Below, in pieces: positions 8,146 through 61,429 of a stretch of DNA of 64,000 bases. The position numbers were made by a program, and so were the translations under genes. The number at the start of each line of letters is the position of its first letter. The first letter of the stretch is position 1. Where the stretch lies: the NCBI RefSeq assembly GCF_015708085.1, contig NZ_JADNYM010000020.1:1-64000 (forward strand), given 5' to 3'. The notes beneath the pieces are model-generated. The model was given only the letters and a program-made list of their open reading frames with translations, did no database searches and was not told the origin of the DNA. This DNA comes from Arthrobacter terrae. GTDB lineage: Bacteria > Actinomycetota > Actinomycetes > Actinomycetales > Micrococcaceae.

Positions 8146-9618
8146 CTACAGCACGTTGACGGCCACGTCGGTTGGCGCGACGGGCGCGGGCAGGAGCGTT
8201 TCTCCGCAGAGGAACTTGTCCACGGCTGCTGCGCAGGATCTGCCCTCGGCAATGGCCCAGACAATCAGTGACTGGCCGCGCCCGGCGTCGCCTGCAACAA
8301 AGACGCCCTCCGTGCTGGTCATGTAGTACCCGTCCCGGACAACGTTTCCGCGCCCGTCGAAGGGAGCCTGGATCTGTTCGGTGATCCCTGCCGGTTCGGG
8401 TCCGGTGAAGCCGAGGGCAAGGAAGACCAGATCCGCCGGGATCTCCCGTTCGGTGCCGGCTTTGGGGACCCGGCGGCCGTTGACGAACTCGGTCTCGGCA
8501 ACTTTGATGGCCGTCAGTACGCCATCCTGGCCAACAAATTCCACGGTTGAGGCCAGATAAGTCCGCTCGCCGCCTTCCTCATGCGCCGCTGCCACTTCGA
8601 ACAGCGTGGGGAACGTGGGCCACGGCTGGTGGGCGGCGCGCTCAGCCGGTGGCTGCAGGCCGATCGCGAGTGTGGTCACGGAGGCTGCCTGTTGGCGGTG
8701 CGCGGTGCCCAGGCAGTCCGCGCCGGTGTCGCCACCGCCCAGGATCACAACGTGCTTACCGCGCGCGTCGATCCGGCGCTGCCCGGCAGTGCTGGTGACC
8801 GGATCTCCGGCCACGGCCCGGTTCGCCTGCACCAGGTAGTCCATGGCGAAGTGCACGCCGGCCAGTTCCCTGCCGGGGATGTCCAGATCCCGCGGCACCG
8901 TGGCGCCGGTGGCGATTACGACGGCGTCATAGCGGCGCCGCAGCTGCTCCCAGGAAACGTCGGTGCCCACCTGCACGCCGGGACGGAACCGCGTTCCCTC
9001 CGCCGTCATTTGTTCCAGCCTGCGGTCAAGGTAGTGCTTTTCCATTTTGAAATCCGGGATGCCGTAGCGAAGCAGTCCGCCAATCCGGTCATCGCGCTCG
9101 TAGACGGCCACGGTGTGCCCGGCGCGGGTCAGCTGCTGGGCCACGGCCAGACCGGCGGGACCGGAACCGATCACGGCAACGGTCCGCCCGGTCAGGCGTG
9201 CAGGTGGGAGCGGTTTGACCCAGTCTTGGTCAAAGGCCTGTTCGATGATGGAGACTTCCACCTGTTTGATGGTCACTGCGGGCTGGTTGATGCCCAAAAC
9301 GCAGGAGGATTCACACGGCGCCGGGCAGAGACGTCCGGTGAATTCCGGGAAGTTGTTCGTCGCGTGCAGCCGCTCCACCGCTTCCTCACCCTTGTCCCGC
9401 CAGGTGAGGTCGTTCCATTCCGGAATCAGGTTGCCCAGCGGGCAGCCCTGGTGGCAGAACGGGACACCGCAGTCCATGCAGCGTCCGGCCTGGCTGCGCA
9501 GGACGCTTTTCTCCTGCGCCTCATAGACTTCCTTCCAGTCCATGATGCGCACGGGGACCGGCCTGCGCGGCTGGGTAACACGGTCACGTACCTTCAAAAA
9601 TCCCCGTGGATCAGCCAC
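8146..9618 (-). CDS. gltD: Glutamate synthase small subunit
   Basis: This is the NADPH-dependent beta subunit of glutamate synthase, which supplies electrons to GltB. The N-terminal half has the two cysteine clusters for 4Fe-4S centres ([16 protein letters not shown] and CPAPCESSC). Two Rossmann segments follow, [12 protein letters not shown] for FAD and [12 protein letters not shown] for NADPH. I chose the GTG at 9618, preceded by GGAGG, rather than a longer open frame; it overlaps the gltB stop by eight bases and yields 490 residues, normal for GltD. gltB and gltD are therefore translationally coupled. Confidence 0.94.
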
Positions 9619-12600
9619 CGGTAACCTCCAGAATCCTGTGCCAGACTTCGGCCCCGTCCGGGTCAAGACCGGAGTTGGCGGCGTCCAGGCGCGTTTGCAG
9701 TACAGCGGCGTAGTCCCGCGGCAAAACCTTGGTGATGTGCGCGGCGGTGGCATCGAAATCCGCCAGCAGCCGTGCGGCCAGGGCCGAATCCGTTTCTTCG
9801 TGATGCCGGATCAGCAGATCCCTGACCAGGCTGCGGTCCGCGGCGTCCAGGGGCAGCAGCTGCAGTTCCCCGGAATCCAGGCTCTGGATATTGACCTTGG
9901 CCGACTGCAGGTCCAGCACGTACGCCGTTCCACCGGACATTCCGGCGCCAAAGTTGCGCCCGGTCCGTCCCAGGATCAGGGCCTGTCCGCCGGTCATGTA
10001 TTCGCAGCCATGATCACCAATACCCTCGACGACGGCGACGGCACCTGAGTTACGCACCAGGAACCGCTCCCCCACCTGGCCGCGCAGGAACATTTCCCCG
10101 CTGGTGGCGCCGTAGCCGATTACATTGCCGGCAATGACATTGTCCTGCGCGGGGAAGACATTGGTGCGGTCCGGGCGGACGATGATCCGGCCACCGGAGA
10201 GCCCCTTGCCAACGTAGTCATTAGAATCGCCGAAGAGCCGCAGCGTGATGCCGGCCGGCAGGAACGCACCCAGAGATTGGCCCGCCTGGCCGGTCAGCGT
10301 GACGTCGATGGTGTCCGCGCCCAGCACATCGATGCCGAATTTCTTCGTCACCTCATGGCCGAGCATGGTGCCCACAGAACGGTCCGTGTTCACCACGCCG
10401 ACGGAAATCTTCACCGGAGCCCGGTCGCTGAGGGCCTCGGCGCTGAGGGTAATCAGCTGCTGGTCAAAGTGCTTGTCCAGCTCGTGGTTCTGCGGCACCA
10501 GGTTGCGAAGCGGGGCGTCGGAGTCGAAATCCATTCCCGCCAAAATCGGATCCAGATCCAGGCCCTCGGCCTTCCAATGGTTGATTGCTTCGCGGGCATC
10601 GAGGGTGTCGGCATGGCCAATGGCCTCCTCGAGGCTGCGGAAGCCAAGCTGCGCGAGGATTTCGCGGACCTCCTCAGCCAGGAATTCGAAGAAGTTGACC
10701 ACAAATTCCGGCTTGCCGGTGAAGCGCTGGCGCAGCTCGGGATTTTGCGTGGCCACGCCCACCGGACAGGTGTCCAGGTGGCAGACCCGCATCATCACGC
10801 AGCCGGAGACCACCAGCGGCGCAGTGGCGAACCCGTACTCCTCGGCGCCGAGCAGCGCGGCAATCACCACGTCGCGTCCGGTCTTGAGCTGGCCGTCCAC
10901 CTGCACCACCACACGGTCGCGCAGGCCGTTGAGCATCAGCGTCTGCTGCGTCTCGGCCAGGCCCAGTTCCCACGGGACGCCGGCGTGTTTGAGGGAGTTC
11001 AACGGGCTGGCGCCGGTGCCGCCGTCGTGCCCGGACACCAGGACGACGTCGGCCTTGGCCTTGGTCACGCCGGCCGCCACGGTGCCGATCCCCACTTCGG
11101 AGACTAACTTGACGTGCACCCGGGCCGAGGGATTGGCCCGCTTGCAGTCGTAGATCAGCTGGGCCAGGTCCTCGATCGAGTAGATATCGTGGTGCGGCGG
11201 CGGCGAAATCAGGCCCACGCCGGGCGTGGAGTGCCGCGTGCTGGCGATCCACGGGTACACCTTGCGTGCCATCAGCTGCCCGCCCTCACCGGGCTTGGCA
11301 CCTTGGGCCATTTTGATCTGGATGTCCGTGGCGTTGGTCAGGTACAGACTCGTGACGCCGAACCGCCCGGAGGCAACCTGTTTAACCGCCGAGCGGCGCC
11401 GGGGGTCCAGCAGCCGGTCCACGTCCTCGCCACCCTCACCGGTGTTGGATTTTGCCCCGAGCTGGTTCATCGCGATGGCCAGCGTCTCGTGCGCCTCCTG
11501 TGAAATGGAGCCGTAGCTCATCGCTCCGGTGGAGAAGCGCTTGACGATGCTGGCGACGGATTCCACCTCGTCGATGGGCACGGACGGGCGCACTCCATCC
11601 TTGAATTTCAGCAGACCACGCAGGGTCATCAGATTTTTGGACTGATCATCGATGCCGCTGGTGTACTGCTTGAAAATGTCGTAGCGGCGCTCCCGGGTGG
11701 CATGCTGCAGCCGGAAGACGGTGTCCGGGTTAAACAAGTGCGGTTCGCCCTCGCGGCGCCACTGGTATTCACCGCCATTGAGCAGCGGACGGTGCGGCTC
11801 CTGGACGCCGTCGGCCGGATACGCCACGGCATGCCGTGCGGCAACTTCCGCCGCGATCACTCCCAGACCGATCCCGCCGAGCTGGGAATTGGTACCGGAG
11901 AAAAACTCGTCCACCAGGTCCTGGGACAGGCCCAGGGCCTCGAACGTCTGTGCTCCGCAGTAGGAGGTGACCGTGGAAATCCCCATTTTGGACATGATCT
12001 TCAGCACGCCCTTGCCCAGGCCCTTGATCAGGTTGTAGACACCTTCCTGGGCGCTCACGCCGGTGATGTCCCCGGTGCGGATCAGTTCCTCCACACTTTC
12101 CATCGCCAGGTACGGGTTCACCGCGGCGGCGCCGTAGCCCACCAGTGCCGCGACGTGGTGCACCTCGCGGACATCCCCGGCCTCCACCACCAGTGCGGTC
12201 TTGGTCCGGGTGGCGCTGCGCAGCAGGTGATGGTGCACGGCACTAAGCAGCAGCAGGGACGGGATCGGCGCCCACTGTGCGCTGGAATCCCGGTCGGAGA
12301 GCACCACGTACTGCACGCCGCGGTTGATAGCTCCGGAAACCTGTTCACAGATTTCAGCGAGCCTGGCACGCAGGGCGCCCTCGCCGCCGTCGGGCTTGTA
12401 CAAACCGCGGACCTTGACGGCCACCCGATCGCCAGCGGCGTTTTCGATATTGGCGATTTTGGCCAGCTCGTCATTGTTGATCACCGGGAACGGCAGTGCC
12501 AGCTGCGGCTGGCGGACCTCCTTGAGCGAGAGCAGGTTGCCCTGCGGCCCGATGCTGGAGTTCAGCGAGGTGACCAGCTCCTCCCGGATGGCATCCAGCG

Positions 12601-14386
12601 GCGGATTGGTGACCTGGGCGAAGGACTGGACAAAGTAATCAAAGAGCAGCCGGGGACGCTGGGACAGTACGGCAATCGGGGTGTCCGATCCCATCGCGCC
12701 CAGTGGTTCGGCGCCGGTGCGGGCCATAGGTCCGATCAGGATCCGCAGTTCCTCCTGCGTGTACCCGAAGGTGCGCTGCCGATGGTTGACCGAAGCCCGG
12801 GTGTGGACTACATGCTCGCGTTCGGGCAGGTCAGCGAGTTTAATAACGTTACCGCGCACCCATTCGCCCCATGGATTGGCACCGGCCAGCTCGGTCTTAA
12901 TCTCCGAGTCGGAGATGACCCGACCCGCGTCCGTGTCCACCAGGAACATCTTGCCCGGGGACACGCGGCCCTTCTTGACCACCTTGGCGGGCTCGATGTC
13001 CAGCACGCCCACCTCGGAGGCAAAAATGACCAGCCCGTCCTCGGTAATCCAATACCGTCCCGGGCGCAGGCCATTGCGGTCCAAGGTGGCGCCCACCACC
13101 GTGCCATCGGTGAAAGAGACCGCGGCGGGGCCATCCCACGGTTCCATCAGCATCGAGTGGTATTCATAAAAGGCCCGGCGTGCCGGATCCATGGTGGCGT
13201 GGTTTTCCCAGGCCTCCGGGAGCATCATCATGATGGCGTGCGTGATGGGACGCCCGGCCAGCCAGAGCAGTTCAGCGACTTCGTCAAAGGACGCGGAATC
13301 GGATGCACCCGGTGTGCAGATCGGAAACAGATCCTCCGGGGTATCCCCGAGCAGCGGGGCGCTCAGCGTGGACTGGCGGGCACGCATCCAGTTCCGGTTG
13401 CCCTTGACGGTATTGATTTCGCCGTTGTGCGCGATGGTGCGGAACGGCTGCGCCAGCGGCCAGGACGGGAAGGTGTTGGTGGAAAAGCGCGAGTGCACAA
13501 TCCCCAGCTTCGTCTTGAACCGGCTGTCCGAAAGGTCCGGGTAGAACGGCTCCAGCTGGGCGGTGGTGAGCATGCCCTTGTACACGATGGTGCGCGAGGA
13601 CAGCGATGGGAAGTAGACGCCGAACTTGTTCTGTGCGCGCTTGCGGAGCCGGAAGGCCTTCGCGTCCAGGACCCGGTCGTCCGGGTTCCGGCTTTCGTTC
13701 CGGCTTTCCGGGCGCCTGGTTTCCGGACGACCGGTGGCCGAATGTACAGCCGCGTCGGCACCAGCCTGCGGCAGGCCCACGAAGAGCTGGACAAAGTGCG
13801 GCATACAGGCCCTTGCCATCGCGCCGACCAGCCCGTCAACGATGGGGACCTCGCGCCAACCGAGGACAGTGAGACCCTCGTCCCCGGCCAGGGCTTCCAG
13901 CCCGGCCCGGGCCAGGGCAGCCTCGGCAGCCTCCGGGGGCAAAAACGCGGTGCCCACGGCGTACTGACCCGCGGCGGGGAGCGCGAAGGTCGTGACGGCG
14001 CGGAAGAATTCGTCCGGGATCTGGGTGAGCAGGCCGGCGCCGTCACCGGTACCTTCGTCCGCCCCGACGGCTCCGCGGTGTTCCAGATTGCGCAGCGCGG
14101 TGAGCGCGGCGTCTACGATGTCATGCCCCGGTTCGCCGCGCAGCGTAGCCACTATGGCGAGACCGCAGGCATCTTTTTCGGTATCCGGCCGGTAGAGACC
14201 CTGCGCTGCGGGCAATAGCGCATAGCGGCGGAACGGGGACTCGGGCAACGCGGCTTCGGGCAGCGGGGCCGGCGGTGCAACCTGCGCAGAGTTGGGTTCC
14301 GTCGGTGCGCTGGGGTGAACCTGCGCAGGGTTGGCCTCTGGCAGTGCGCAGCTGTGAACCTGCGCGCCGGATGGGATATGAATCAT
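9611..14386 (-). CDS. gltB: Glutamate synthase large subunit
   Basis: The enzyme makes two glutamates from glutamine and 2-oxoglutarate. At 1591 residues it contains the glutaminase domain, the central domain, the FMN-binding synthase domain ([12 protein letters not shown]) with the 3Fe-4S cysteines [13 protein letters not shown], and the C-terminal GXGXG beta-helix. The catalytic Cys74 lies in [10 protein letters not shown], so the predicted propeptide is 73 residues, longer than usual and rich in Ala, Pro and Gln with imperfect repeats. A charged insertion ([14 protein letters not shown]) sits in the glutaminase domain. The ATG at 14386 has GGAAGGA upstream; a longer frame starting at 14440 lacks support. 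Confidence 0.95.
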
Positions 14387-19787: not shown

Positions 19788-20558
19788 CTAAGCTGTCGGA
19801 TCGTTGCCGTGGCTGAGCTCATCCCAGCTGTCAATGTCATCACGCACCACGGGTATTGGCTGCGCCGCAGTTGAGTCAGCTGATACTCCTGTCGTTGACC
19901 CTGTCGTTGACCCAGGCGTTGACTCGGTGGCCGAGCCTGGCCGGGCCGCGGAAACACCGCCGGTGCGGGCCCCTGCGGCATCATATTTGGTCCGCTGGTT
20001 CCAGGTCCGGCCCAGCCAGGCGATCAGGACCGCTGCCAGCGCCAGAATCACGGCGGCGCCGACGGCAATCAGTGGGAACGCCGTCGTCGTCACGTCCGAA
20101 TTCTGGCCGGTTACGCCGGTCGCCGTCCCCACCGGTCCGGCTGCCGCTGCCTGCGGGTTGAGCACGACGGCGACGGAAGAGACAATAATGCCGACGGCGC
20201 CCAGGAAGATGATGACCGCCGCCACGACGCGTGAGATCCGCCGGCCGATCGAGGCCGCCAGCGCGCCCGCCAAGGCCACCAGTGCCAACGCCGTGACCGC
20301 TGTCGCCGCTTTGCTGCCGGCAACGTTCAGATCCGCCTGCTGGACCACCCCCTCACCGAGCTTTACGTGCACCCAGGTCTGCGTTGTGGTCCCGAAGACC
20401 ACCAGCGAACTGATGACGGCAAGCATGATCAGCGTGGACTTGCGCCCCAGCCGCCCCGCCCGCCGGCCCGCCGTTCTCCCACCGGCAGGCTTTTGCTGCG
20501 CCCCATGGACGGCTTCTTCACGCATGGTTAGTTCGCTCACAATCTTCAGGTCTTTCAT
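19788..20558 (-). CDS. Trp-operon-associated membrane protein (TIGR02234 family)
   Basis: The 256-residue protein has four predicted membrane spans (about 42-60, 85-105, 112-133 and 162-185) with an external segment after the first. The hydrophilic tail ends in the family-typical DSWDELSHGNDPT. Members occur next to trpE in many actinobacteria; their function is not known. Its ATG overlaps the trpE stop (ATGA), showing tight coupling to tryptophan synthesis. Confidence 0.85.
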   Translation of the reverse strand: MKDLKIVSELTMREEAVHGAQQKPAGGRTAGRRAGRLGRKSTLIMLAVISSLVVFGTTTQTWVHVKLGEGVVQQADLNVAGSKAATAVTALALVALAGALAASIGRRISRVVAAVIIFLGAVGIIVSSVAVVLNPQAAAAGPVGTATGVTGQNSDVTTTAFPLIAVGAAVILALAAVLIAWLGRTWNQRTKYDAAGARTGGVSAARPGSATESTPGSTTGSTTGVSADSTAAQPIPVVRDDIDSWDELSHGNDPTA

Positions 20559-22168
20559 CGAAAGTCGCTTGGCCTGTCATTAATTGGACTGTCGTTACTT
20601 GGACTGTCGTCAAAGGAGGGGTGGCTGAAATCCGCGGCAATGGTCTGCAGCGAGGCGGCGGCATGTACCGCCCGCAGCGGTGCCGCTGCCTTGTTCACGG
20701 ATTCCAGCGCTTCGGTTGCGTTGTCCGAGTCGGCAACAATTCCGCCGCCCGCCTGCACATATGCCAGACCATCGCGGAGCAGCGCCGAGCGGATGGCGAT
20801 CGCCATGTCCATGTCGCCGGCAAAATCCAAATACCCCACCACGCCGCCGTAAATACCCCGCCGGTGCGGCTCGAGCTCGTCGAGCAGCCGCAGCGCGCGT
20901 GGCTTGGGCGCCCCGGAGAGGGTTCCGGCAGGGAACGTCGCGGCCAGCACGTCGTAGGCGGTGTACTCCGGGCCCAGCGTGCCGACGACGGTGGAAACCA
21001 GGTGCATGATGTGGCTGAATTTCTCCACCTCCATGAACTGTGTGACGTCCACCGACCCGGCCACGCAAACCTTGGAAATATCATTGCGCGCCAGGTCCAC
21101 CAGCATCAGGTGCTCGGCGCGTTCTTTGGCATCTGCGCGCAATTCATCCGCCAGAGCCTTATCCGCTTCCACGCTCCCGCCACGCGGCCGGGAGCCGGCG
21201 ATCGGGTGGGTGATGACCTGGTCGCCGGTCACCGTCACCAGTGACTCCGGTGAGGAACCCACGATGGAAAAGGGTCGTCCCTTGGCATCTTCAAAGCTGA
21301 AGAGGTACATGTACGGGCTCGGGTTCGTGTTGCGCAGCACGCGGTAGACATCGAGCGCGGAGGCATCGCAATCCATCTCGAAGCGGCGCGAAATCACCAC
21401 CTGGAAAACTTCCCCTTCCACGATGGCTTCCTTGCCCCTGTCGATCGCGGCCAGATACTCCGGCTCGGCCCAGCGCTGCCGGACCCGGTCCGCGAAGGAT
21501 GACGCGTCCGTGCTGTTCAGCACGGAGACGGGTTGCGCCACCGGTGTGCTGATCTGCTGCAGCATTGTGTTCACGCGTGCCACCGCGTCATGCCAGGCCT
21601 CATCGACCCGGTCCGTGCTGTCGTCGTAATTAATTGCGTTGGCAATCAGCAGCACGCTGCCCTCGGCATTGTCGTGGACGGCCATATCCGCCACCAGATT
21701 CAGCGCCAGCTCGGGCAGCTGCAGGTCATCCTCCGGCGGGGCCTGAAGTTTCTCCCAATGCCGCACCGATTCCCAGCCCACAAATCCGACCAGTCCGGAG
21801 GTAAACGGCGGGAGCCCGGCAAAGCGTTCCGTGCGCAGTTCATTGATCGTCGCCCGGACCGCTTCCACCGGGTTGCCGCCCAGGGGCACGCCGGCGGGGG
21901 CCTCTCCCAGCCAGCATGCGGCGCCGTCGTCCGTCGTCAACGTGGCCCGGGACCGGACGCCGATGAACGAATAACGCGACCAGACGCCTCCCATCGCGGC
22001 GGACTCCATCAAAAACGTGCCCGGCTGCCCCTTGGCCAGCTTGCGGTACAGCCCGATCGGCGTTTCGGCATCGGCAAGGACCTTCAGCCGCACGGGAATC
22101 ACGCGCCTGGTCCTGGCCAGCAGCCGGAACTGAACAAGGGTCGGGCTGATCACGCCTAGCTCCTGCAT
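20555..22168 (-). CDS. trpE: Anthranilate synthase component I
   Basis: TrpE converts chorismate to anthranilate with ammonia from TrpG, which is not in this window. The 537-residue protein has the N-terminal regulatory segment (LMESAAMGGVWSRYSFIG) and the chorismate-binding domain with PIAGSRPRGG, LVDLARND, TFPAGTLSGAPK and the closing YVQAGGGIVADSD. The tail is a short Asp/Ser/Pro-rich repeat. GAAGG lies about ten bases before the ATG. It is the first trp gene of this minus-strand run, 67 bp after hisI. I see no attenuator or Trp-rich leader peptide in that gap. Confidence 0.95.
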   Translation of the reverse strand: MQELGVISPTLVQFRLLARTRRVIPVRLKVLADAETPIGLYRKLAKGQPGTFLMESAAMGGVWSRYSFIGVRSRATLTTDDGAACWLGEAPAGVPLGGNPVEAVRATINELRTERFAGLPPFTSGLVGFVGWESVRHWEKLQAPPEDDLQLPELALNLVADMAVHDNAEGSVLLIANAINYDDSTDRVDEAWHDAVARVNTMLQQISTPVAQPVSVLNSTDASSFADRVRQRWAEPEYLAAIDRGKEAIVEGEVFQVVISRRFEMDCDASALDVYRVLRNTNPSPYMYLFSFEDAKGRPFSIVGSSPESLVTVTGDQVITHPIAGSRPRGGSVEADKALADELRADAKERAEHLMLVDLARNDISKVCVAGSVDVTQFMEVEKFSHIMHLVSTVVGTLGPEYTAYDVLAATFPAGTLSGAPKPRALRLLDELEPHRRGIYGGVVGYLDFAGDMDMAIAIRSALLRDGLAYVQAGGGIVADSDNATEALESVNKAAAPLRAVHAAASLQTIAADFSHPSFDDSPSNDSPINDRPSDFR

Positions 22169-52052: not shown

Positions 52053-53282
52053 GTGACCCATAACAGGCAAGTAAGGGATGTTGTCTTCGTGGACGGCGTC
52101 CGCACGCCCTTCGGTAGGGCCGGCGAAAAGGGCATTTATGCCGGCACCCGGGCCGATGACCTGGTGGTCAAATGCATCCGGGAACTGATGCGCCGCAACC
52201 CCTCGTTACCAGCGGCGCGCATTGATGAAGTCTCCATTGCGGCCACCACGCAAACCGGCGATCAGGGCCTGACCATCGGCCGCACCGCCGCGCTGCTGGC
52301 CGGATTACCGAAATCGGTCCCGGGCTTCGCGATCGACCGCATGTGTGCCGGCGCCATGACAGCCGTTACGACGACGGCGTCCGGCATCGGTTTCGGCGCC
52401 TACGACGTCGTCATCGCCGGCGGCGTGGAGCACATGGGCAACCACCCGATGGGCTCCGGCGCAGATCCCAACCCGCGGTTCATGTCCGAGCGCCTGGTGG
52501 ATCCTGCGGCACTGAATATGGGCAACACAGCAGAGAATCTGCATGACCGTTTCCCCACCATCACCAAGGACCGCACCGATGCCTTCGCGGTCGGCAGCCA
52601 GAATAAGCTCGCCAAGGCCTACCAGGACGGCCTGATTCAGCCGGACTTGGTACCCGTTGCAACGCTCAAGCCCGAAAAGGGCTGGGCGCTGAATACCGTT
52701 GATGAACCACCGCGTCCGGGTACCACGGTGGAGGACCTTGCCTCCCTGCGCACTCCCTTCCGTGCCCACGGCCGGGTCACCGCCGGCAACGCCGCCGGTT
52801 TGAACGACGGCGCCACAGCGGCCCTGCTGGCCTCGGCCGAGGCGGCGGAGGAACTGGGCCTGACGGTAAAAATGCGGCTGGTCTCCTACGCCTTCGCGGG
52901 CGTCGAGCCGGAGGTGATGGGCATCGGCCCGGTCCCGGCGACCGAAAAAGCCCTGAAGATGGCCGGGCTGGGCATCGAGGACATTGGGCTTTTCGAAATC
53001 AATGAGGCCTTCGCCGTGCAGGTGTTGTCCTTTCTGGACCACTTCGGCATCGCCGACGAGGACCCCCGCGTCAACCGCTATGGCGGCGCCATCGCCGTGG
53101 GGCATCCACTGGCATCCTCCGGTGTGCGCCTGATGAATCAGCTGGCCAGCCAGTTCGAACACGATCACAGCGTCCGCTACGGCATCACCACCATGTGCAT
53201 CGGTCTGGGCATGGGAGGAACCGTGGTCTGGGAAAACCCGCATTGGGACGGCACCGCCACCGAAGAGGAGAACGCAGCATGA
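52053..53282 (+). CDS. fadA: Acetyl-CoA C-acyltransferase (thiolase)
   Basis: The thiolase performs the last step of beta-oxidation. Active-site Cys lies in DRMCAGAMTAV, with EINEAFAVQ, GHPLASSG and the second Cys in MCIGLGMGG. I chose the GTG at 52053, preceded by GAGGAG at 52041-52046, giving 409 residues; the longer frame starts in the leader. Its TGA overlaps the next ATG, so it is coupled to the FadB-type protein. Confidence 0.94.
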   Translation: MTHNRQVRDVVFVDGVRTPFGRAGEKGIYAGTRADDLVVKCIRELMRRNPSLPAARIDEVSIAATTQTGDQGLTIGRTAALLAGLPKSVPGFAIDRMCAGAMTAVTTTASGIGFGAYDVVIAGGVEHMGNHPMGSGADPNPRFMSERLVDPAALNMGNTAENLHDRFPTITKDRTDAFAVGSQNKLAKAYQDGLIQPDLVPVATLKPEKGWALNTVDEPPRPGTTVEDLASLRTPFRAHGRVTAGNAAGLNDGATAALLASAEAAEELGLTVKMRLVSYAFAGVEPEVMGIGPVPATEKALKMAGLGIEDIGLFEINEAFAVQVLSFLDHFGIADEDPRVNRYGGAIAVGHPLASSGVRLMNQLASQFEHDHSVRYGITTMCIGLGMGGTVVWENPHWDGTATEEENAA

Positions 53283-55429
53283 GCGCCCAGGATTACAGCA
53301 CCCTTACCGGGCTCTTCCCCGATGAAGTGGTCACCCACTCATATCTCCAGGATGTCCAGCTCCCTGCGGTCAATGGCCGTCCCGGCGCCGGCACCTTTGC
53401 CCTGATTACACTCGACAACGGTTTGGACCACCGGCGCCCCAGCACCCTTGGACCCAACACGCTGGTGGAGCTCAAGGGTGTGCTGGAGGCCCAGCGGGCC
53501 CGGGCAGCGGCAGGGGACATCGTCGGTGTAGGCGTCACCGGCAAGCCGCACTTCCTCGTCGCCGGCGCCGACCTCTCCGCCGTCAAGGGGCTGCATGACC
53601 GCGAGGCCGGCGTCCTAATGGCCAGCCTTGGCCACGATGTCTACAGCACTCTGAACGATCTGGGGGTCCCCAGCTTCGTCTTCATCAACGGCGTTGCCCT
53701 CGGCGGCGGGCTGGAAATCGCACTGAACGCGAATTACCGGACCGTCTCCACCGGTGCCGGCGCCATTGGTCTGCCGGAGGCGTTCCTGGGGCTGGTGCCC
53801 GGCTGGGGCGGAGTCTACCTGCTCCCCCGGCTGATCGGACCGGTTAATGCCGTGAAGGTAATGATCGAGAACGCACTGAGCAGCAACCGCACGCTCAGCG
53901 GCGCAGCCGCGTTCAAACTTGGGATCGCCGATGCACTCTTCGAACCGGCCGACTTCGTGGAACAATCCCTCGCCTGGGCCGCCAAGGTCATCAGCGGGGA
54001 GGTCACGGTGGACCGGCCCAACGCCGTCTCCGAGCCGCTTTCCGAAGCCAACAGCGCGGCCTGGGATGCCGCCGTCGCCGGTGCCCGGAAGTTTGTCGAA
54101 GACGCAACGTCCAATGCCGCCCCCGCTCCGGCCCGCCTCATCGACCTGCTGGAAAAGGGAAAGAACTACAGCAAGGCCGAATCCTTCGCGCAGGAGGATC
54201 TGGCGCTGGCGGATTTGATCCAGACGGCGGAGTTCCGCTCCACCGTTTATGCCTTCCTGGATCTGGTGCAAAAGCGCGGCAAACGTCCCGCCGGCGCACC
54301 GGATAAAAAACTTGCCCGTCCCGTCACCAAGGTGGGCGTGGTGGGTGCCGGCCTAATGGCCAGCCAGCTCGCCCTGCTCTTCGCCCGGCAGCTCAAGGTC
54401 CCGGTGATCATGACGGACATCGACCAGGCCCGCGTGGACAAGGGCGTGGGCTACGTGCACACCGAGGTGGACAAGCTGCTGGCCAAGGGGCGGATCTCCC
54501 CCGACGCCGCCAACCGGACCAAGGCGCTGGTCTCCGGTTCCGTCTCCAAGGCTGCCTTCGCGGACGCGGACTTTATCATTGAAGCCGTCTTTGAGGAGCT
54601 CAGCGTCAAAAAGCAGGTCTTCGCCGAAGTGGAGGCCGTGGTTTCGGCGACCTGCATCCTCGCCACCAACACCTCGTCGCTCTCCGTCACCGCAATGGCC
54701 GAGGACCTGGCACACCCCGAGCGGCTGGTGGGCTTCCACTTCTTCAACCCGGTGGCCCTGATGCCGCTGCTGGAGATTGTCCGCGCCCCGAAGACGGACG
54801 ACGCCGTGCTGGCCACCGCCTTCGAGACGGCCAAGGCGCTGCGGAAGACGGCGGTCCTGGTCAAGGACGCCGCCGCTTTTGTGGTCAACCGCATCCTGGG
54901 CCGGATGTTCGGCGAAATCACCGCTGCCTTTGACGAGGGCACCGATGCTGTCACAGCCGACAACGCGCTGCGTCCGATGGGCCTGCCGATGAGTCCGTTC
55001 ACGCTGCTGGCGCTGGTGGGGCTGCCGGTGGGCCAGCATGTGCAGGAATCCCTGCATGCGGCCTTTGGGGACCGCTTTTATGTCTCCGCGAACCAGCAGC
55101 GGTTAATCGATGCGGGCAAGAAGGGCCTGTGGGAGAAGAACGACGACGGCAGCCAGTTTGTGCCCGAGGAAACGCTGGCTCTGCTGAGCTTGGGCAACTC
55201 CCCCTCCAGCAGCGAAGAAGTACTCACCCGCACGCAGGATGCCCTGGCCGACGAGATCGGCCGGATGCTCGCCGAGGGCGTGGTGGCCGGTCCGGAAGAC
55301 ATCGATCTGTGCGTCATTACCGGCGCCGGCTGGCCGATGCATCTGGGCGGCATTACCCCTTATCTTGACCGCGTGGGCGCGTCCGAGCGCGTCAATGGCA
55401 AGCTCTTCCACCCGGAACTGGCTGCCTAA
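53279..55429 (+). CDS. fadB: Multifunctional enoyl-CoA hydratase/3-hydroxyacyl-CoA dehydrogenase
   Basis: The 716-residue protein combines two beta-oxidation steps. The hydratase part (about 1-310) has the oxyanion loop VAGADLSAVKG, ALGGGLEIALNANYR and LPEAFLGLVPGWGG with the two catalytic Glu. The dehydrogenase part (about 340-716) has the NAD loop VGVVGAGLMASQLA and the catalytic His in FHFFNPVALMPLLE. It forms the usual complex with FadA. The layout is that of the actinobacterial FadB/FadJ type. Confidence 0.93.
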   Translation: MSAQDYSTLTGLFPDEVVTHSYLQDVQLPAVNGRPGAGTFALITLDNGLDHRRPSTLGPNTLVELKGVLEAQRARAAAGDIVGVGVTGKPHFLVAGADLSAVKGLHDREAGVLMASLGHDVYSTLNDLGVPSFVFINGVALGGGLEIALNANYRTVSTGAGAIGLPEAFLGLVPGWGGVYLLPRLIGPVNAVKVMIENALSSNRTLSGAAAFKLGIADALFEPADFVEQSLAWAAKVISGEVTVDRPNAVSEPLSEANSAAWDAAVAGARKFVEDATSNAAPAPARLIDLLEKGKNYSKAESFAQEDLALADLIQTAEFRSTVYAFLDLVQKRGKRPAGAPDKKLARPVTKVGVVGAGLMASQLALLFARQLKVPVIMTDIDQARVDKGVGYVHTEVDKLLAKGRISPDAANRTKALVSGSVSKAAFADADFIIEAVFEELSVKKQVFAEVEAVVSATCILATNTSSLSVTAMAEDLAHPERLVGFHFFNPVALMPLLEIVRAPKTDDAVLATAFETAKALRKTAVLVKDAAAFVVNRILGRMFGEITAAFDEGTDAVTADNALRPMGLPMSPFTLLALVGLPVGQHVQESLHAAFGDRFYVSANQQRLIDAGKKGLWEKNDDGSQFVPEETLALLSLGNSPSSSEEVLTRTQDALADEIGRMLAEGVVAGPEDIDLCVITGAGWPMHLGGITPYLDRVGASERVNGKLFHPELAA

Positions 55430-55567: not shown

Positions 55568-56026
55568 ATGGACTCGAGCGCTCCGCTAAACCGCCGCACC
55601 CTGCTGAACCATTCCGTCCTCACGGCAGGTGCCGCCGCCGGCTCTATTGCAGCACTGACGGGATGCTCTCCGCAGCAGGGCGCCCCTGCTGCTGCCCAGA
55701 TGCCGTCGGCCGTCCCCTCTGGCGGCGGAACTCCCGTCCGCGTCGGGCGCCTTGCCGATCTCGCCGTCGGCGCCACCGGCAGCGCAAAGGCCAATAATAA
55801 GAACATCGTGCTGTACCGGCCGGACGAAACGTCGGTCCTTGCCTACAGCGCCGTCTGCACGCACGCCGGCTGTACGGTGGCGGCCGCCGGGAAGAAATTT
55901 GACTGCCCCTGTCACGGCTCGTCATTCGAGGCCGCGGATGGAACCGTCATTACCGGTCCTGCCCAGCGTCCCCTGGTACCCCTGCAGGCGGCTATCGATG
56001 GGGATTGGATCACCGTCTCGCTGTAG
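55568..56026 (+). CDS. Rieske-type 2Fe-2S lipoprotein
   Basis: The 152-residue protein has a twin-arginine start (NRRTLLNHS), a hydrophobic stretch and a lipobox-like LTGC at about residue 33, so it is probably exported folded and lipid-anchored. The Rieske ligands are in CTHAGC and CPCHGSSF, a complete set. The domain is the small QcrA-like type often found alone in actinobacteria. Its electron partner is unknown. It lies between the fad operon and the EPSP-synthase-like cluster, with 194 bp before the latter. Confidence 0.88.
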   Translation: MDSSAPLNRRTLLNHSVLTAGAAAGSIAALTGCSPQQGAPAAAQMPSAVPSGGGTPVRVGRLADLAVGATGSAKANNKNIVLYRPDETSVLAYSAVCTHAGCTVAAAGKKFDCPCHGSSFEAADGTVITGPAQRPLVPLQAAIDGDWITVSL

Positions 56027-56220: not shown

Positions 56221-59200
56221 GTGCAATTATCCGTCATTGGTTCCGACGATCTTATCCGTGGGGACGTTCAGGTCCCCAACTCCAAATATCATGCCCATCG
56301 GGCCCTGATCCTTGCCTCACTGGCACCTGGCGTCAGCCATATTTCCGGGCTCAGCGACGCCCGGCATGTGGACTATACAGTCTCACTGCTTCGCTCACTC
56401 GGCACCCGAATCGAGATCGAGGCAGACACCTTCATTGTCCATGGCGGCCCGTACCACCCCCGCTCGGATGCAGTCTCCGCCGGCAGTTCGGGCAGCACCT
56501 TGTATTTCATGGTGGGACTGGTCTCGCTGGCAGACCGCGACGTGACCATCACGGGTCAAAAGTACTTCCAACGCCGCCCCATCGGCCCGTTACTCGCGGC
56601 CCTGCGCCAGCTCGGTGTGGACGCCACCTCCCCCACAGACTGCCCGCCGATCCGGGTCAAGGGACGCCGTCCCAGCGGTGGCATAGTGCACATCTCCGGA
56701 ACGCTCTCGCAATGGGTTTCCGGACTGCTGCTGCTGGCCCCGTTCGCGCTGGATCAAAGCACCGTGGTCATCGACGGGCCACTCAACGAACGCACCTACA
56801 TTGAGCTCACCGTGCGCATGATGCGCCAATTCGGTCTGCAGGTCGAAGTGTCAGCAGACGGCCGGCGGTACACAATCCCGCCCAACCAGGTCCCGCGGCC
56901 CACGGATCTGGTCCTGCCGCCGGACATCGGCTCCGCCGCGTTCGGGCTGGCCGTAGGAGCCCTGCACCCGGCGGACATTTTATTGCGCGGGCTGCGCCAG
57001 ACCAGCTCCAGCGGGACCGACCACCCCGAGTCCGAACTGCTGGATATCGTCGCGGCGATGGGCCTGCCGATGGACTACGACCAGCAGGCCGACGGGGTCC
57101 GGGTGCGGCACCAGGGCCGCCGGATGGGCCCGGTGGATGTGGATTGCCGGACGGTGCCGGACATGCTGCCGGTGCTCTCAGTCATGGCGGCCCTGGCCGA
57201 TGGCGAAAGCGTCTTCCGGCATGTGGAGCACGTCCGGCTGAAGGAATCAGACCGTGTGGTAGCCATGCTCCAGCTCAACAGCATGGGCGCAGACCTGAGC
57301 TTTGACGGCAGCAATTTACGGGTCCGCGGTGTGCCCCGGCTGCACGGCGCCCACCTTTCATCCTTCAATGATCACCGCGTCCTGATGTCCCTGGCCGTCG
57401 CAGCGACGGCCGCTGCCGGCAGATCCTCGCTGACGTACCCGAATGCCTACCGGATCTCCTACCCGAAGTTCCTGGCTGCCATGCAGACTCTCGGCCTGGA
57501 TATGGAGGTGGAGCGGGGCTCCGCACGCGGGCCCGTACTCCGTCATCCCGCCGAACCCGATGCGAAGGAGAGCGCTGCTGCCGAGTCCATGACGGCCTCG
57601 GACTGGATCAGGCGCTGGGCCAAAGAGAAACCACATGCGCTGGCCGTGGTGGATGCACGCTGGAATACGACGTCGCACCTGAGCTGGGCGGCCCTTGACA
57701 ACGAGGTGGATCACGCGGCGGCCGTTTTCCTCAACCTTGGTGTCGCCGCCGGAGACAGAATCGCCGTCCAGCTGCCGAACTGGCGCCAGTTCGTGGTGAT
57801 CTCCGCAGCGGCGCTGCGGATTGGAGCGGTCATCGCGCCGATCATGCCGATTTTCGGCGACCGTGAAGTTAGCTATGCGCTGCAGCAGTCCGGTGCCAGG
57901 GTATTGCTGGTGGCGGATAATTTCCGCGGCCGCCAGCATGCCAGCGAAATTGCCCGGCTGCTCGACCGCAGCGGCCCCGGCACCGATCCTGTCAGTGGGA
58001 GTGCCAGTGGCACCGGCACCGGCCCCGGCAACGGCGGGATCTGCGTCGAGCACGTCTTCGTGGTTCATGGGACGGCAGGTGTCCCGCGGCTGATGCCCAA
58101 CAACACAAATCCGCGGGTGCAGTGGTTACCCTGGCATCACGCCTGGGCGTCCGCCGTCGTCGACCGTGCAGCCCTGGACGCGCGCGCACCAGGTCCCGAC
58201 GACGCCGCCCAACTGCTGCTGACCTCGGGCACCTCGGGCCGTCCCAAAGGTGTGGTCCATACGCACCGGCGGCTTTCCCGGGCTGCCCTGATGGAAGCGC
58301 GCCAGCTGGGCCTGGACGGCACCGATTCCATCTACATCCCGTCCCCGCTGGCGCACCAGACGGGATTCCTCTACGGCATGTGGCTCGCGTTCACCCTCGG
58401 CGTGCCGCAGATCCTGCAGAGCGTCTGGAATGCTCCCCGCGCGCTGGAAATTCTGCAGGACTGGGAAGGAACCTTTGTGCAGGCCGCGACGCCCTTTTTG
58501 ACCGATTTACTACAGGCCGTGGAAGACGGCGGGCCCCGTCCCGAACGCCTGCGTGTCTTCGTGGTGACGGGCGCGGCCGTGCCCCGCGCGCTGGCCGAAC
58601 GCGCCACCCGCGTGCTCGGGACGGCGGTGTGCGGGGCTTTCGGCACCACCGAGACGGGGCTCGGCGCGCTCACCTCACCGGCGGACCCGCCGTCGAAGGC
58701 GTGGGGCACTGACGGCAGGGGACTGACCGGAGTGCAGCTGCGGATTGTCGACGACGACGGGCTGCGGCTGCCGCCGGAGGCGGAGGGGAATCTGGAACTG
58801 ACCAGCCCGACGGTCTTCGACGGCTATTTGGACCGGCCCGAGCTGGACGCGGAGACATTCAGCGCCGATGGCTGGTACCGTACCGGGGATCTGGCCACCA
58901 TCGATGACGAGGGCTACCTGCGCATTACCGGCCGCGTGCGCGACATCATTAACCGCGGCGGGGAAAAACTTCCGGTCGCAGACCTCGAACAACTCCTGCA
59001 CACCCACCCCGGCATTGCCGACGTGGCCATCGTTGCCATGCCGGACGCCCGGCTCGGCGAGCGCGCCTGCGCCTTCGTCCGGCTGGCACCGGGAGCGGAA
59101 CTGAGCTTCAACGGGCTCCAGCGGTTCCTGCAGCAAAGCGGGGTGAGCAAACATTATTGGCCCGAGCGGCTCGAACCAATAGATGAAATCCCGCGCAACC

Positions 59201-59292
59201 CGGTGGGCAAGATCCAGAAATTTGTGCTGCGCGAGCGCGCCGCGCATCTGGTCCCCCAGACGCACACGACGAGAAAGGCCAGGGAAAAATGA
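56221..59292 (+). CDS. Fusion of EPSP-synthase-like domain and acyl-CoA ligase
   Basis: The 1023-residue protein joins an EPSP-synthase-like domain (about 1-445) to an AMP-forming acyl-CoA ligase (about 457-1023). In the first part Lys22 and Arg27 (SKYHAHR), the Arg in RRPIGPLLAALR, SQ in GTLSQW, YIELT, PDMLP, KESDR and NDHR match AroA. Relative to E. coli AroA, Ser23 is Tyr, Ser169 is Leu, Ser197 is Glu and the PEP-binding Lys411 is Ile. The ligase has TSGTSGRPKG (668-677), GTTETG, GWYRTGDL and Lys997 in NPVGKIQK. GTG 56221 starts the domain as in AroA; longer frames upstream lack support. It is coupled to the next gene by ATGA. A role in converting shikimate to an alicyclic acyl-CoA is inferred. 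Confidence 0.88.
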   Translation: MQLSVIGSDDLIRGDVQVPNSKYHAHRALILASLAPGVSHISGLSDARHVDYTVSLLRSLGTRIEIEADTFIVHGGPYHPRSDAVSAGSSGSTLYFMVGLVSLADRDVTITGQKYFQRRPIGPLLAALRQLGVDATSPTDCPPIRVKGRRPSGGIVHISGTLSQWVSGLLLLAPFALDQSTVVIDGPLNERTYIELTVRMMRQFGLQVEVSADGRRYTIPPNQVPRPTDLVLPPDIGSAAFGLAVGALHPADILLRGLRQTSSSGTDHPESELLDIVAAMGLPMDYDQQADGVRVRHQGRRMGPVDVDCRTVPDMLPVLSVMAALADGESVFRHVEHVRLKESDRVVAMLQLNSMGADLSFDGSNLRVRGVPRLHGAHLSSFNDHRVLMSLAVAATAAAGRSSLTYPNAYRISYPKFLAAMQTLGLDMEVERGSARGPVLRHPAEPDAKESAAAESMTASDWIRRWAKEKPHALAVVDARWNTTSHLSWAALDNEVDHAAAVFLNLGVAAGDRIAVQLPNWRQFVVISAAALRIGAVIAPIMPIFGDREVSYALQQSGARVLLVADNFRGRQHASEIARLLDRSGPGTDPVSGSASGTGTGPGNGGICVEHVFVVHGTAGVPRLMPNNTNPRVQWLPWHHAWASAVVDRAALDARAPGPDDAAQLLLTSGTSGRPKGVVHTHRRLSRAALMEARQLGLDGTDSIYIPSPLAHQTGFLYGMWLAFTLGVPQILQSVWNAPRALEILQDWEGTFVQAATPFLTDLLQAVEDGGPRPERLRVFVVTGAAVPRALAERATRVLGTAVCGAFGTTETGLGALTSPADPPSKAWGTDGRGLTGVQLRIVDDDGLRLPPEAEGNLELTSPTVFDGYLDRPELDAETFSADGWYRTGDLATIDDEGYLRITGRVRDIINRGGEKLPVADLEQLLHTHPGIADVAIVAMPDARLGERACAFVRLAPGAELSFNGLQRFLQQSGVSKHYWPERLEPIDEIPRNPVGKIQKFVLRERAAHLVPQTHTTRKAREK

Positions 59293-60587
59293 CGGTACGG
59301 CAGGCTTCCACCTTGGACGGGCGCGGCAGCGCCGTGCCACAGGAGCTCTACGACAGCCTACTGGCGGAGGTCACGGCCTGGGTCGAGGGGCCCGGCGAGG
59401 CCTGGGCCGAAAGGATCGAGGCCAGCGGGACCGTGGAACCGGGACTGCGCGCCGAGCTGAAGAGCAAGGGCTTCCTGGGCCTGGCGGCACCCGTGGAACT
59501 GGGCGGACGCGGGCTGAGCTTTACGCAGTGGATGGGGCTGATGGAGGTCTTCTCCCGTTCCCACGCTTCGATCCGGATGATCGTGCATGTGGTCAATGGC
59601 ACCTGGCGGTCCATGAACCCGCATGCCAGCGCCACCCAGCGGGAAAAGTTCATCGTCCCCTCCGTGGCCGGAGACATCACCGTGGCCTTTACCCTGACCG
59701 AACCGGATAACGGAACAGGAGCGGACATCAGCTGCTCCGTTCGCAGAGATGGGGACTTTTACTACCTCACCGGGACCAAGCATCTGATTACGTTCGGCGT
59801 GAACTGTGACTATTGGCTGCTCTTCGCCCGGCTGGCCGGCAGCAGCGGCTCAGAAGGCACCGTGGCACTGCTGGTAGACCGCGACGCTGCCGGTGCCACG
59901 GTGCAGGACACCTCCAACACCATGGGCGTTCGGGGTACCGATCACGCCCGGCTCACATTCCGTGACACCCCCGTCCCGGTGTCCCAGCGCCTCGGTGCCG
60001 AAGGCGACGGCCTGACGATTGCCTTGGGCGGGTTCCTCACGCCGAGCCGGATTTCCGTGGCGATGAGCTGCGTTGGTCTGGCCGAGCGCGCCCAGCAACT
60101 CGCCGTCAGCTATGCCCAGCACCGGGTTACCTTCGGGAAGCCGATCTCACAGCGCCAGGCCATCGCGTTCCTGCTCGCCGAAAACGCTGCGGACATCGAA
60201 GCGGCGCGGGCCTTGGTCATGCACGCCGCTGCCCAGTGGGAAGCCGGTTCCGCCCGCGCCCCGGCACTGTCCTCGATGGCCAAGCTGACCGCCGTCGACA
60301 TGCTCACCCGGGTGACCGACAAGGCGCTGCAGGTTCACGGCGGGCTTGGCTATTGGAAATCCCAGCCCATTGAACGGGTCTACCGGGACGCGCGGGCGCA
60401 GCGCTTTGAGGAGGGAACCAATGAGATCCAGAAGGCCGTGATCGCCAAGGACCTTCTCAGCCGCGCGGGCCACGGCACGGACCCGGCAGCCCCGGACCCG
60501 GCACCGGCGAATGCAGCCGCACCAGACCCAGCATCGGCCAATGCGGGCCGGGCCGCCGATTCGGGCCTGACCGGGGCAGCCCTGTGA
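59289..60587 (+). CDS. Acyl-CoA dehydrogenase of the EPSP-synthase-like cluster
   Basis: The FAD enzyme has the usual three-domain layout: a helical N-terminus, the FAD loop AFTLTEPDNGTGADI, GTKHLITFG, then RVTFGKPISQRQ and QVHGGLGYWKSQPIERVYRDARAQRFEEGTNEIQ at the active site (limits quoted in parts), with the catalytic Glu in EEGTNEI. A 40-residue Ala/Pro/Asp repeat tail follows. The start ATG overlaps the fusion stop, and its TGA overlaps the next GTG. In the proposed pathway it would introduce or shift ring double bonds at the CoA stage. Confidence 0.92.
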   Translation: MTVRQASTLDGRGSAVPQELYDSLLAEVTAWVEGPGEAWAERIEASGTVEPGLRAELKSKGFLGLAAPVELGGRGLSFTQWMGLMEVFSRSHASIRMIVHVVNGTWRSMNPHASATQREKFIVPSVAGDITVAFTLTEPDNGTGADISCSVRRDGDFYYLTGTKHLITFGVNCDYWLLFARLAGSSGSEGTVALLVDRDAAGATVQDTSNTMGVRGTDHARLTFRDTPVPVSQRLGAEGDGLTIALGGFLTPSRISVAMSCVGLAERAQQLAVSYAQHRVTFGKPISQRQAIAFLLAENAADIEAARALVMHAAAQWEAGSARAPALSSMAKLTAVDMLTRVTDKALQVHGGLGYWKSQPIERVYRDARAQRFEEGTNEIQKAVIAKDLLSRAGHGTDPAAPDPAPANAAAPDPASANAGRAADSGLTGAAL

Positions 60588-61429
60588 CCGCCGGTAATGC
60601 AGCCGGTGCCGCCGGCAAATACGCCGGGAAGGTGGCACTCATCACCGGGTCTTCACGCGGGATCGGCCGGGCGCTGGCCCTGCAGCTCGCCGCGGAAGGC
60701 GCCAGCGTGGTGATCAACTATCGGAAAAACGCCGATCTGGCCGACGCCGTCGTTGCCGAAGCCAAGGCCGCCGGCGGAGATGGCATCGCAGTCCAGGCGG
60801 ACGTTGAAAATCCCGAAGACATCATCCGGCTCTTCGACGCGGTGGATGCCGCCTATGGGCGGCTGGACTTCTTCATCAACAACGCCGCTGCGTCGGCGTT
60901 CAAGAAGCTGCTGGATCTGAAGACCCATCACCTGGACCGTTCCTATGCCATGAACGTCCGGCCTTTTGTGCTGGGCGCACAGGAAGCGGTCAAGCTGATG
61001 GACCAGGGCGGCCGGATCGTTGCCGTCAGCAGCTACGGCAGCATGCGCGGATTCGCCACCTACGCCGCGCTCGGCTCCTACAAGGCGGCGGTGGAGTCCT
61101 TTATCCGGTACATGGCGGTGGAATTTGCCGGCTACGGCATCAATGTCAACGGCGTCAACGGCGGCCTGATTGACTCCGACTCGCTGGAGTATTTCTACAG
61201 CATGCCGGGCATGGCACCGATGGAGCGGGTACTGGAAACCATTCCGCTGCGCCGACCCGGCACCGTGGCGGATATGGCCAACGCCGTCGAATTCCTGCTT
61301 TCCCCCAACTCCGCGTACATCACCGGGCAAATCCTGGTGGTGGACGGCGGCATGACAGTGGCGGCGGCGCCGTACTATCACCAAACAACGGACCCGGTGA
61401 GTCTGCCTGAGCGTCCCACCCGCCGCTGA
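60584..61429 (+). CDS. FabL/ChcA-like short-chain reductase
   Basis: The 281-residue SDR has the NADPH loop ITGSSRGIGRAL, NNAAASAF and the catalytic SSYGSMRG with YKAAVESF. The sequence after it (VEFAGYGINVNGVNGGLIDSDSLEYF, quoted to mark the segment, with the IDSDSL typical) resembles FabL enoyl-ACP reductases and ChcA, the 1-cyclohexenylcarbonyl-CoA reductase of Streptomyces collinus, which has about the same length. It starts with GTG overlapping the upstream stop (GTGA). Reduction of ring double bonds is the proposed role. Confidence 0.85.
   Translation: MTAGNAAGAAGKYAGKVALITGSSRGIGRALALQLAAEGASVVINYRKNADLADAVVAEAKAAGGDGIAVQADVENPEDIIRLFDAVDAAYGRLDFFINNAAASAFKKLLDLKTHHLDRSYAMNVRPFVLGAQEAVKLMDQGGRIVAVSSYGSMRGFATYAALGSYKAAVESFIRYMAVEFAGYGINVNGVNGGLIDSDSLEYFYSMPGMAPMERVLETIPLRRPGTVADMANAVEFLLSPNSAYITGQILVVDGGMTVAAAPYYHQTTDPVSLPERPTRR

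Follow-up and report, generated by a model that had tools for sequence, protein, structure and literature searches.

What would a bacterium make with an EPSP synthase homologue that is fused to an acyl-CoA ligase? This question is raised by a three-gene operon in a 64,000-nucleotide stretch of DNA from the soil actinobacterium Arthrobacter terrae (Micrococcaceae; contig NZ_JADNYM010000020.1, positions 1 to 64,000; hereafter, the window). Here, a domain resembling 5-enolpyruvylshikimate-3-phosphate (EPSP) synthase and an AMP-forming acyl-CoA ligase share one chain, and the two genes that follow encode an acyl-CoA dehydrogenase (ACAD) and a FabL/ChcA-like enoyl reductase of the short-chain dehydrogenase/reductase (SDR) type. 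Judged from sequence and gene context, the probable product of this free-standing, reduced operon is cyclohexanecarboxyl-CoA (CHC-CoA) or a closely similar alicyclic acyl-CoA, with shikimate as the precursor.

Organization of the operon

The three reading frames (Table 1) are open and are joined by 4-bp overlaps, ATGA at the fusion/dehydrogenase junction (59289-59292) and GTGA at the dehydrogenase/reductase junction (60584-60587), as a preliminary description of this DNA had reported. Relatives share both overlaps (for example, L005 at 8721/8724 and 10001/10004), and the GTG start at 56221 agrees with the N terminus of their fusions (V/M-x-LSVxG...). Promoter and terminator scans gave chance-level results only. 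The same description had placed no polyketide synthase (PKS) nearby, and indeed no PKS-sized open reading frame is present in the 64-kb window, the longest encoding 1513 residues (9611-14152).

The module in Streptomyces antibiotic-type loci

Assignment of the module to the CHC-CoA type is well supported by sequence comparison, and the strongest evidence comes from its context in two Streptomyces genomes. In the first (G1155), a four-gene module consisting of the fusion, an ACAD, an SDR and a reductase of the FadH/old yellow enzyme (OYE) type lies beside genes for 3-amino-5-hydroxybenzoate (AHBA) synthesis, PKS and nonribosomal peptide synthetase (NRPS). The neighbors include an AroB-like gene, an aminotransferase, an oxidoreductase and an AHBA-synthesis phosphatase as well as NRPS/PKS genes, and the AHBA-synthesis protein scored 349.6 bits with TIGR01454 (cut-off, 246.65). 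By gene content this is an ansamycin (ansatrienin-type) locus. In the second genome (G1011), the same module lies beside a 5-aminolevulinate synthase gene (over the model cut-off), two ketoacyl-acyl carrier protein synthase III (KAS III) genes and acyl carrier protein (ACP) genes, as would be expected for a locus of the asukamycin type.

The CHC-CoA cassette for ansatrienin in Streptomyces collinus was reportedly described by Cropp et al. in 2000 as ansJKLM plus chcA. The window operon has the same enzyme types as that cassette (EPSP synthase-like, ligase, ACAD and ChcA-like SDR), but unlike the ansatrienin-type locus the window lacks PKS, NRPS and AHBA genes and the FadH/OYE-type reductase of G1155. 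Likewise, G1011, of the type known from Streptomyces nodosus subsp. asukaensis, carries the fused module as in the window, whereas the window operon has no adjacent dedicated KAS III, ACP or dienoyl reductase. In ansatrienin, label from shikimate appears in the cyclohexanecarboxyl unit (PMC8788734), and asukamycin A1 uses CHC-CoA, its producer also making omega-cyclohexyl fatty acids at 3.1% of the total (PMC4147253). The gene set had been described beforehand as being of the CHC-CoA type; these orthologous fused operons uphold that description, and the whereabouts of the best homologues favor CHC-CoA formation over an unrelated characterized pathway.

A further Streptomyces genome (G1012; L101:11452-15223) carries the module without the OYE reductase. 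Genes resembling those for phosphoenolpyruvate (PEP) mutase, phosphonopyruvate decarboxylase and an aminotransferase were noted by eye near it, and a cyclohexyl phosphonate or hybrid cluster is possible there.

Distribution of the fusion

One survey used the SDR as query. Among named genomes, the same fused operon is found in Arthrobacter, Paenarthrobacter, Specibacter, Sinomonas, Microbacterium sp. STN6, Kutzneria, three Micromonospora and an Acidothermus metagenome-assembled genome. Whether the fusion is conserved in Micrococcaceae had been put forward earlier as a point to check; the full fusion is present in 23 of 245 genomes sampled from this family, with no PKS around any copy examined, and this occurrence is a new point. 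An order-wide sample gave the fusion in 2 of 248 genomes, both Micrococcaceae. Streptomyces was surveyed at the DNA level with a degenerate pattern encoding the conserved SKYHAHR motif, which matched 8 of 344 genomes (control, 0); seven of these hold intact fusions and one (G921) a broken one. All of the 45 intact homologues are fused and none is split; they range from Streptomyces, Micromonospora, Kutzneria and Acidothermus to Micrococcaceae, a few rows of this set being the same genome counted twice. The fusion is therefore the rule and not, as had been supposed, a peculiarity of this locus.

Some loci depart from this arrangement. The EPSP synthase-like gene of G921 (L102/L103, ∼19962-21080 of the joined stretch) is decayed and split between two reading frames, and no further gene of the module was seen in 40 kb. 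Twelve genomes of genus g165 (L125, L127, L128, L130-L138) have the fusion, ACAD and FadH/OYE reductase genes consecutively with no adjacent SDR; their SDR may be one seen with a second ligase and fabF elsewhere. In Arthrobacter of the zg-Y type (L013, L014, L015, L017 and L026; for example, L013:7168-10939), a ChcA-like SDR, ∼70% identical, has a fabF-like gene and another acyl-CoA ligase as neighbors, and the stretch concerned carries no fusion. In Streptomyces G841, fabF-like and ligase genes directly follow a full module.

The EPSP synthase-like domain

Residues 12-419 of the fusion match Pfam EPSP_synthase (PF00275) with 257 bits, and the domain scores 311.6 bits with the aroA model TIGR01356, over the cut-off of 287.25. 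Active-site residues were compared in 44-46 fusion copies on E. coli numbering, checked against 1G6S. Thirteen positions are invariant (K22, R27, G96, R124, S170, Q171, Y200, D313, K340, E341, R344, H385 and R386), and a further set is changed in a fixed or nearly fixed manner (S23Y, R100Y, P101F, S197E, N336H and K411I, with loss of S169). The domain also carries N94S, and N94 is altered in essentially all copies. In E. coli structures, the phosphate of shikimate 3-phosphate (S3P) is bound by S169, S170 and S197 and its carboxylate by S23 and R27, and K411 lies on the PEP side. The intact S3P- and PEP-binding residues by which AroA is recognized are thus broken up in this domain. On contig 27, the same genome has a separate AroA-type gene of the ordinary kind, which carries the actinobacterial GHETDR motif.

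The operon domain shares with EPSP synthase (AroA) its fold family and many ligand residues but differs in six invariant active-site changes and in its C-terminal ligase. Given the changes at S23, R100, S197, N336 and K411 and the loss of S169, its sequence is not that of a normal EPSP synthase. Retention of most PEP-side residues (K22, R124, E341, H385, R344 and R386) would suit an active enolpyruvyl transferase, with the operon making an enolpyruvyl or chorismate-type CoA ester. Such a product is exceedingly improbable, since essentially all copies are altered both on the PEP side (K411, R100 and N94) and on the S3P side (S23, S169, S197 and N336), and published labeling shows that in the related pathway shikimate itself enters the ring (PMC8788734). 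An elimination on shikimate or S3P is consistent with the predicted active site, whose residues favor neither substrate over the other.

Ligase, dehydrogenase and reductase

The same 1023-residue chain contains Pfam AMP-binding (464-870) and AMP-binding_C (922-997) domains. The best NCBIfam model for the ligase is the cyclohexanecarboxylate-CoA ligase AliA (TIGR03208; 448.5 bits, cut-off 792.3), the LLTSGTSGRPK and NPVGKIQK motifs are retained, and its nearest plasmid-borne relatives carry the aliA annotation; no EPSP synthase-like/ligase fusion was found among PLSDB plasmids. The dehydrogenase has the Pfam acyl-CoA dehydrogenase N, M and C domains and scored 189 bits (cut-off 650) and 124.5 bits (cut-off 575) with cyclohexanecarbonyl-CoA dehydrogenase models. 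In an alignment, the catalytic Glu motif EEGxNE is retained in 41/41 ACADs, and identity to the ACADs of the streptomycete modules is 68-73%. The SDR matches Pfam adh_short_C2, with FabL as best NCBIfam model; the Y-x6-K pattern of enoyl reductases is present in 35/35 copies, and identity to the streptomycete SDRs is 63-67%.

A ligase nearest AliA, an ACAD that matches dehydrogenase models for cyclohexanecarbonyl-CoA (189 and 124 bits) and fadA/fadB directly upstream could also describe a catabolic operon for cyclohexanecarboxylate or naphthenic acids, similar to the anaerobic AliA/BadJ pathway and feeding FadA/FadB. This we consider very unlikely. The ligase and ACAD scores with these models all lie below the cut-offs, and the AliA/BadJ pathway has no place for an enoyl reductase or for the EPSP synthase-like partner, an obligate one that degradation leaves unexplained. 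Orthologous modules lie within biosynthetic clusters, FadA/FadB stay in place in operon-free genomes, and Sinomonas and Arthrobacter have the operon by ribosomal-protein and elongation-factor genes.

Absence of the dienoyl reductase from the operon

The gene list given at the outset is supported in its assignment to the CHC-CoA type, but it overlooked a FadH/OYE-type reductase of 660-800 residues that belongs to nearly all other modules and is absent here. This reductase is present in 6/7 intact Streptomyces modules, adjoins the operon in 17/23 Micrococcaceae carriers, and also occurs in the modules of Kutzneria, Micromonospora, Acidothermus, Microbacterium, Sinomonas and the 12 g165 genomes; the operonic copies form a single clade (support 100/100). 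Operons without it are those of the window, H14-L1, PH39-S1, Specibacter cremeus, A. wenxiniae, SDTb3-6 and G570, and in the relative Z7-10 the reductase lies at a different chromosomal place. The window operon is thus a reduced version of the module.

All six carriers lacking the operonic reductase hold one full-length, distant FadH/OYE paralogue (40-44% identical), that of the window genome being on contig 62 (C62:50245-52266) and the only type in the genome. Non-orthologous replacement was considered, the paralogue being present in these six and not seen in the other 17 carriers, and was set aside because it is common in operon-free Micrococcaceae; the paralogue is therefore a candidate substitute only. 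By our arithmetic, three dehydrations and four reductions separate shikimate from cyclohexanecarboxylate, and the lack of one reductase could therefore be of consequence. Given the missing reductase, the operon could instead make a less reduced or still hydroxylated alicyclic acyl-CoA, such as 1-cyclohexenylcarbonyl-CoA or a hydroxycyclohexene acid. The CHC-type reductase is missing from operon and genome alike in G000, G396 and G398, the sole strong match in G531, G570 and G486 is the distant paralogue, and the operon is nevertheless under purifying selection. Such a product is rather unlikely, however, given that each reductase-less genome has a full-length paralogue that may substitute and that the other three enzymes are unchanged in key motifs.

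Selection and genomic neighborhood

The ratio of nonsynonymous to synonymous substitutions (dN/dS) is ∼0.07-0.10 against the two closest relatives, similar to that of fadB, and by this sequence measure the operon is under purifying selection and in use. Because homologues in many genomes also keep gene order, fusion and reading frame, the operon is not a chance arrangement. In the fusion tree, the window groups with H14-L1 and PH39-S1, followed by Z7-10 and Specibacter. In a genome of the same genus (G395) and in four from a related genus, the downstream neighbors come after fadB without an intervening CHC operon, whether or not a Rieske-type gene is present, and this empty site marks the operon as accessory. 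In Sinomonas and genus g165, the module lies between ribosomal-protein and elongation-factor genes.

Table 1. Coordinates of the operon and its left flank in the window
Feature	Coordinates	Strand	Remarks
EPSP synthase-like (residues ∼12-425)/AMP-forming acyl-CoA ligase (∼454-1010) fusion	56221..59292	+	1023 aa, GTG start
EPSP synthase-like domain, remodeled active site	56221..57510	+	alignment on E. coli numbering
Acyl-CoA ligase domain	57541..59292	+	best NCBIfam model AliA (TIGR03208), under cut-off
Acyl-CoA dehydrogenase	59289..60587	+	432 aa; catalytic-type Glu in EEGTNEIQ
FabL/ChcA-like SDR enoyl reductase	60584..61429	+	281 aa; Tyr-x6-Lys motif YAALGSYK
FadB-type multifunctional beta-oxidation protein	53279..55429	+	left flank, outside module; kept also where operon absent
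FadA	52089-53282		upstream of FadB

A Rieske-type [2Fe-2S] protein with a twin-arginine-like leader is encoded between fadB and the operon (55568-56026); the gene is in the same place in several operon-free genomes and not in G395. The synonymous divergence (dS) of the SDR from its H14-L1 and PH39-S1 counterparts is 0.62-0.67, compared with ∼0.31 for the other two operon genes, and the Z7-10 SDR is 92% identical while its fusion is only 77-85% identical. Together these values suggest replacement of the SDR gene by recombination.

Discussion

The following route is proposed. Instead of adding enolpyruvate, the EPSP synthase-like domain would act by elimination on shikimate or its 3-phosphate and so take off the first ring oxygen, and the fused ligase would form the CoA ester. 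Further double-bond shifts and enoyl reductions would fall to the ACAD and the FabL/ChcA-type reductase, and the missing dienoyl-CoA reductase step would probably be supplied in trans by the contig-62 paralogue, or may be dispensable here. CHC-CoA would then prime fatty-acid synthesis to give omega-cyclohexyl fatty acids in the membrane.

Several points weigh against this route. Sameness with the characterized ansJ-M/chcA genes is drawn from cluster context rather than direct sequence comparison, and the names ansatrienin-type and asukamycin-type derive from gene content. The family models for CHC enzymes all score under their curated cut-offs. The dienoyl reductase is gone from the operon, and the paralogue in the genome is of a distant, widespread type. 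Although no PKS was found around any Micrococcaceae copy examined, the PKS search of the A. terrae genome was confined to the window. Finally, a search of the open literature brought up no account of omega-cyclohexyl fatty acids in either Arthrobacter or Sinomonas.

Omega-cyclohexyl fatty acids are known in only a few bacteria, chiefly acidothermophiles and Curtobacterium, and those of Alicyclobacillus and Curtobacterium originate from shikimate. The operon would resemble the pathway of these organisms in expected lipid product and shikimate origin; the fatty acids are described in PMC10562698, and the Curtobacterium report is cited in PMC5118839. In Microbacterium sp. STN6, fabF directly follows the module and no PKS was seen, and in five Arthrobacter genomes fabF lies beside the ChcA-like SDR. 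Given these neighbors and the lack of a PKS in the window or by the examined Micrococcaceae copies, fatty-acid priming is the simplest use of the product, and a role as omega-cyclohexyl starter is modestly favored as its most likely destination. A more specific proposal, which we regard as unlikely, is that the EPSP synthase-like domain, its 3-phosphate pocket lost (no S169, S197E), is a dehydratase of unphosphorylated shikimate whose tethered ligase captures the diene as a CoA ester, and that the reduced three-gene operon of the Specibacter/Paenarthrobacter clade yields an omega-cyclic membrane fatty acid that is new and retains some unsaturation.

The new points are the PKS-free spread of the module in Micrococcaceae, the reduced operon, the fixed changes in the EPSP synthase-like domain and the accessory status of the operon. 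The carriers would offer compact, PKS-free versions of the CHC-CoA pathway in bacteria that grow easily, which could serve starter-unit engineering (doramectin). A long-standing question, how an EPSP synthase homologue removes the first hydroxyl of shikimate, becomes testable, with the six fixed active-site changes as targets. To our knowledge, nobody has looked for omega-cyclohexyl fatty acids in Micrococcaceae; our scan predicts that these lipids, or a relative of them, would be made by about one-tenth of the sampled members of this family of ordinary soil bacteria.

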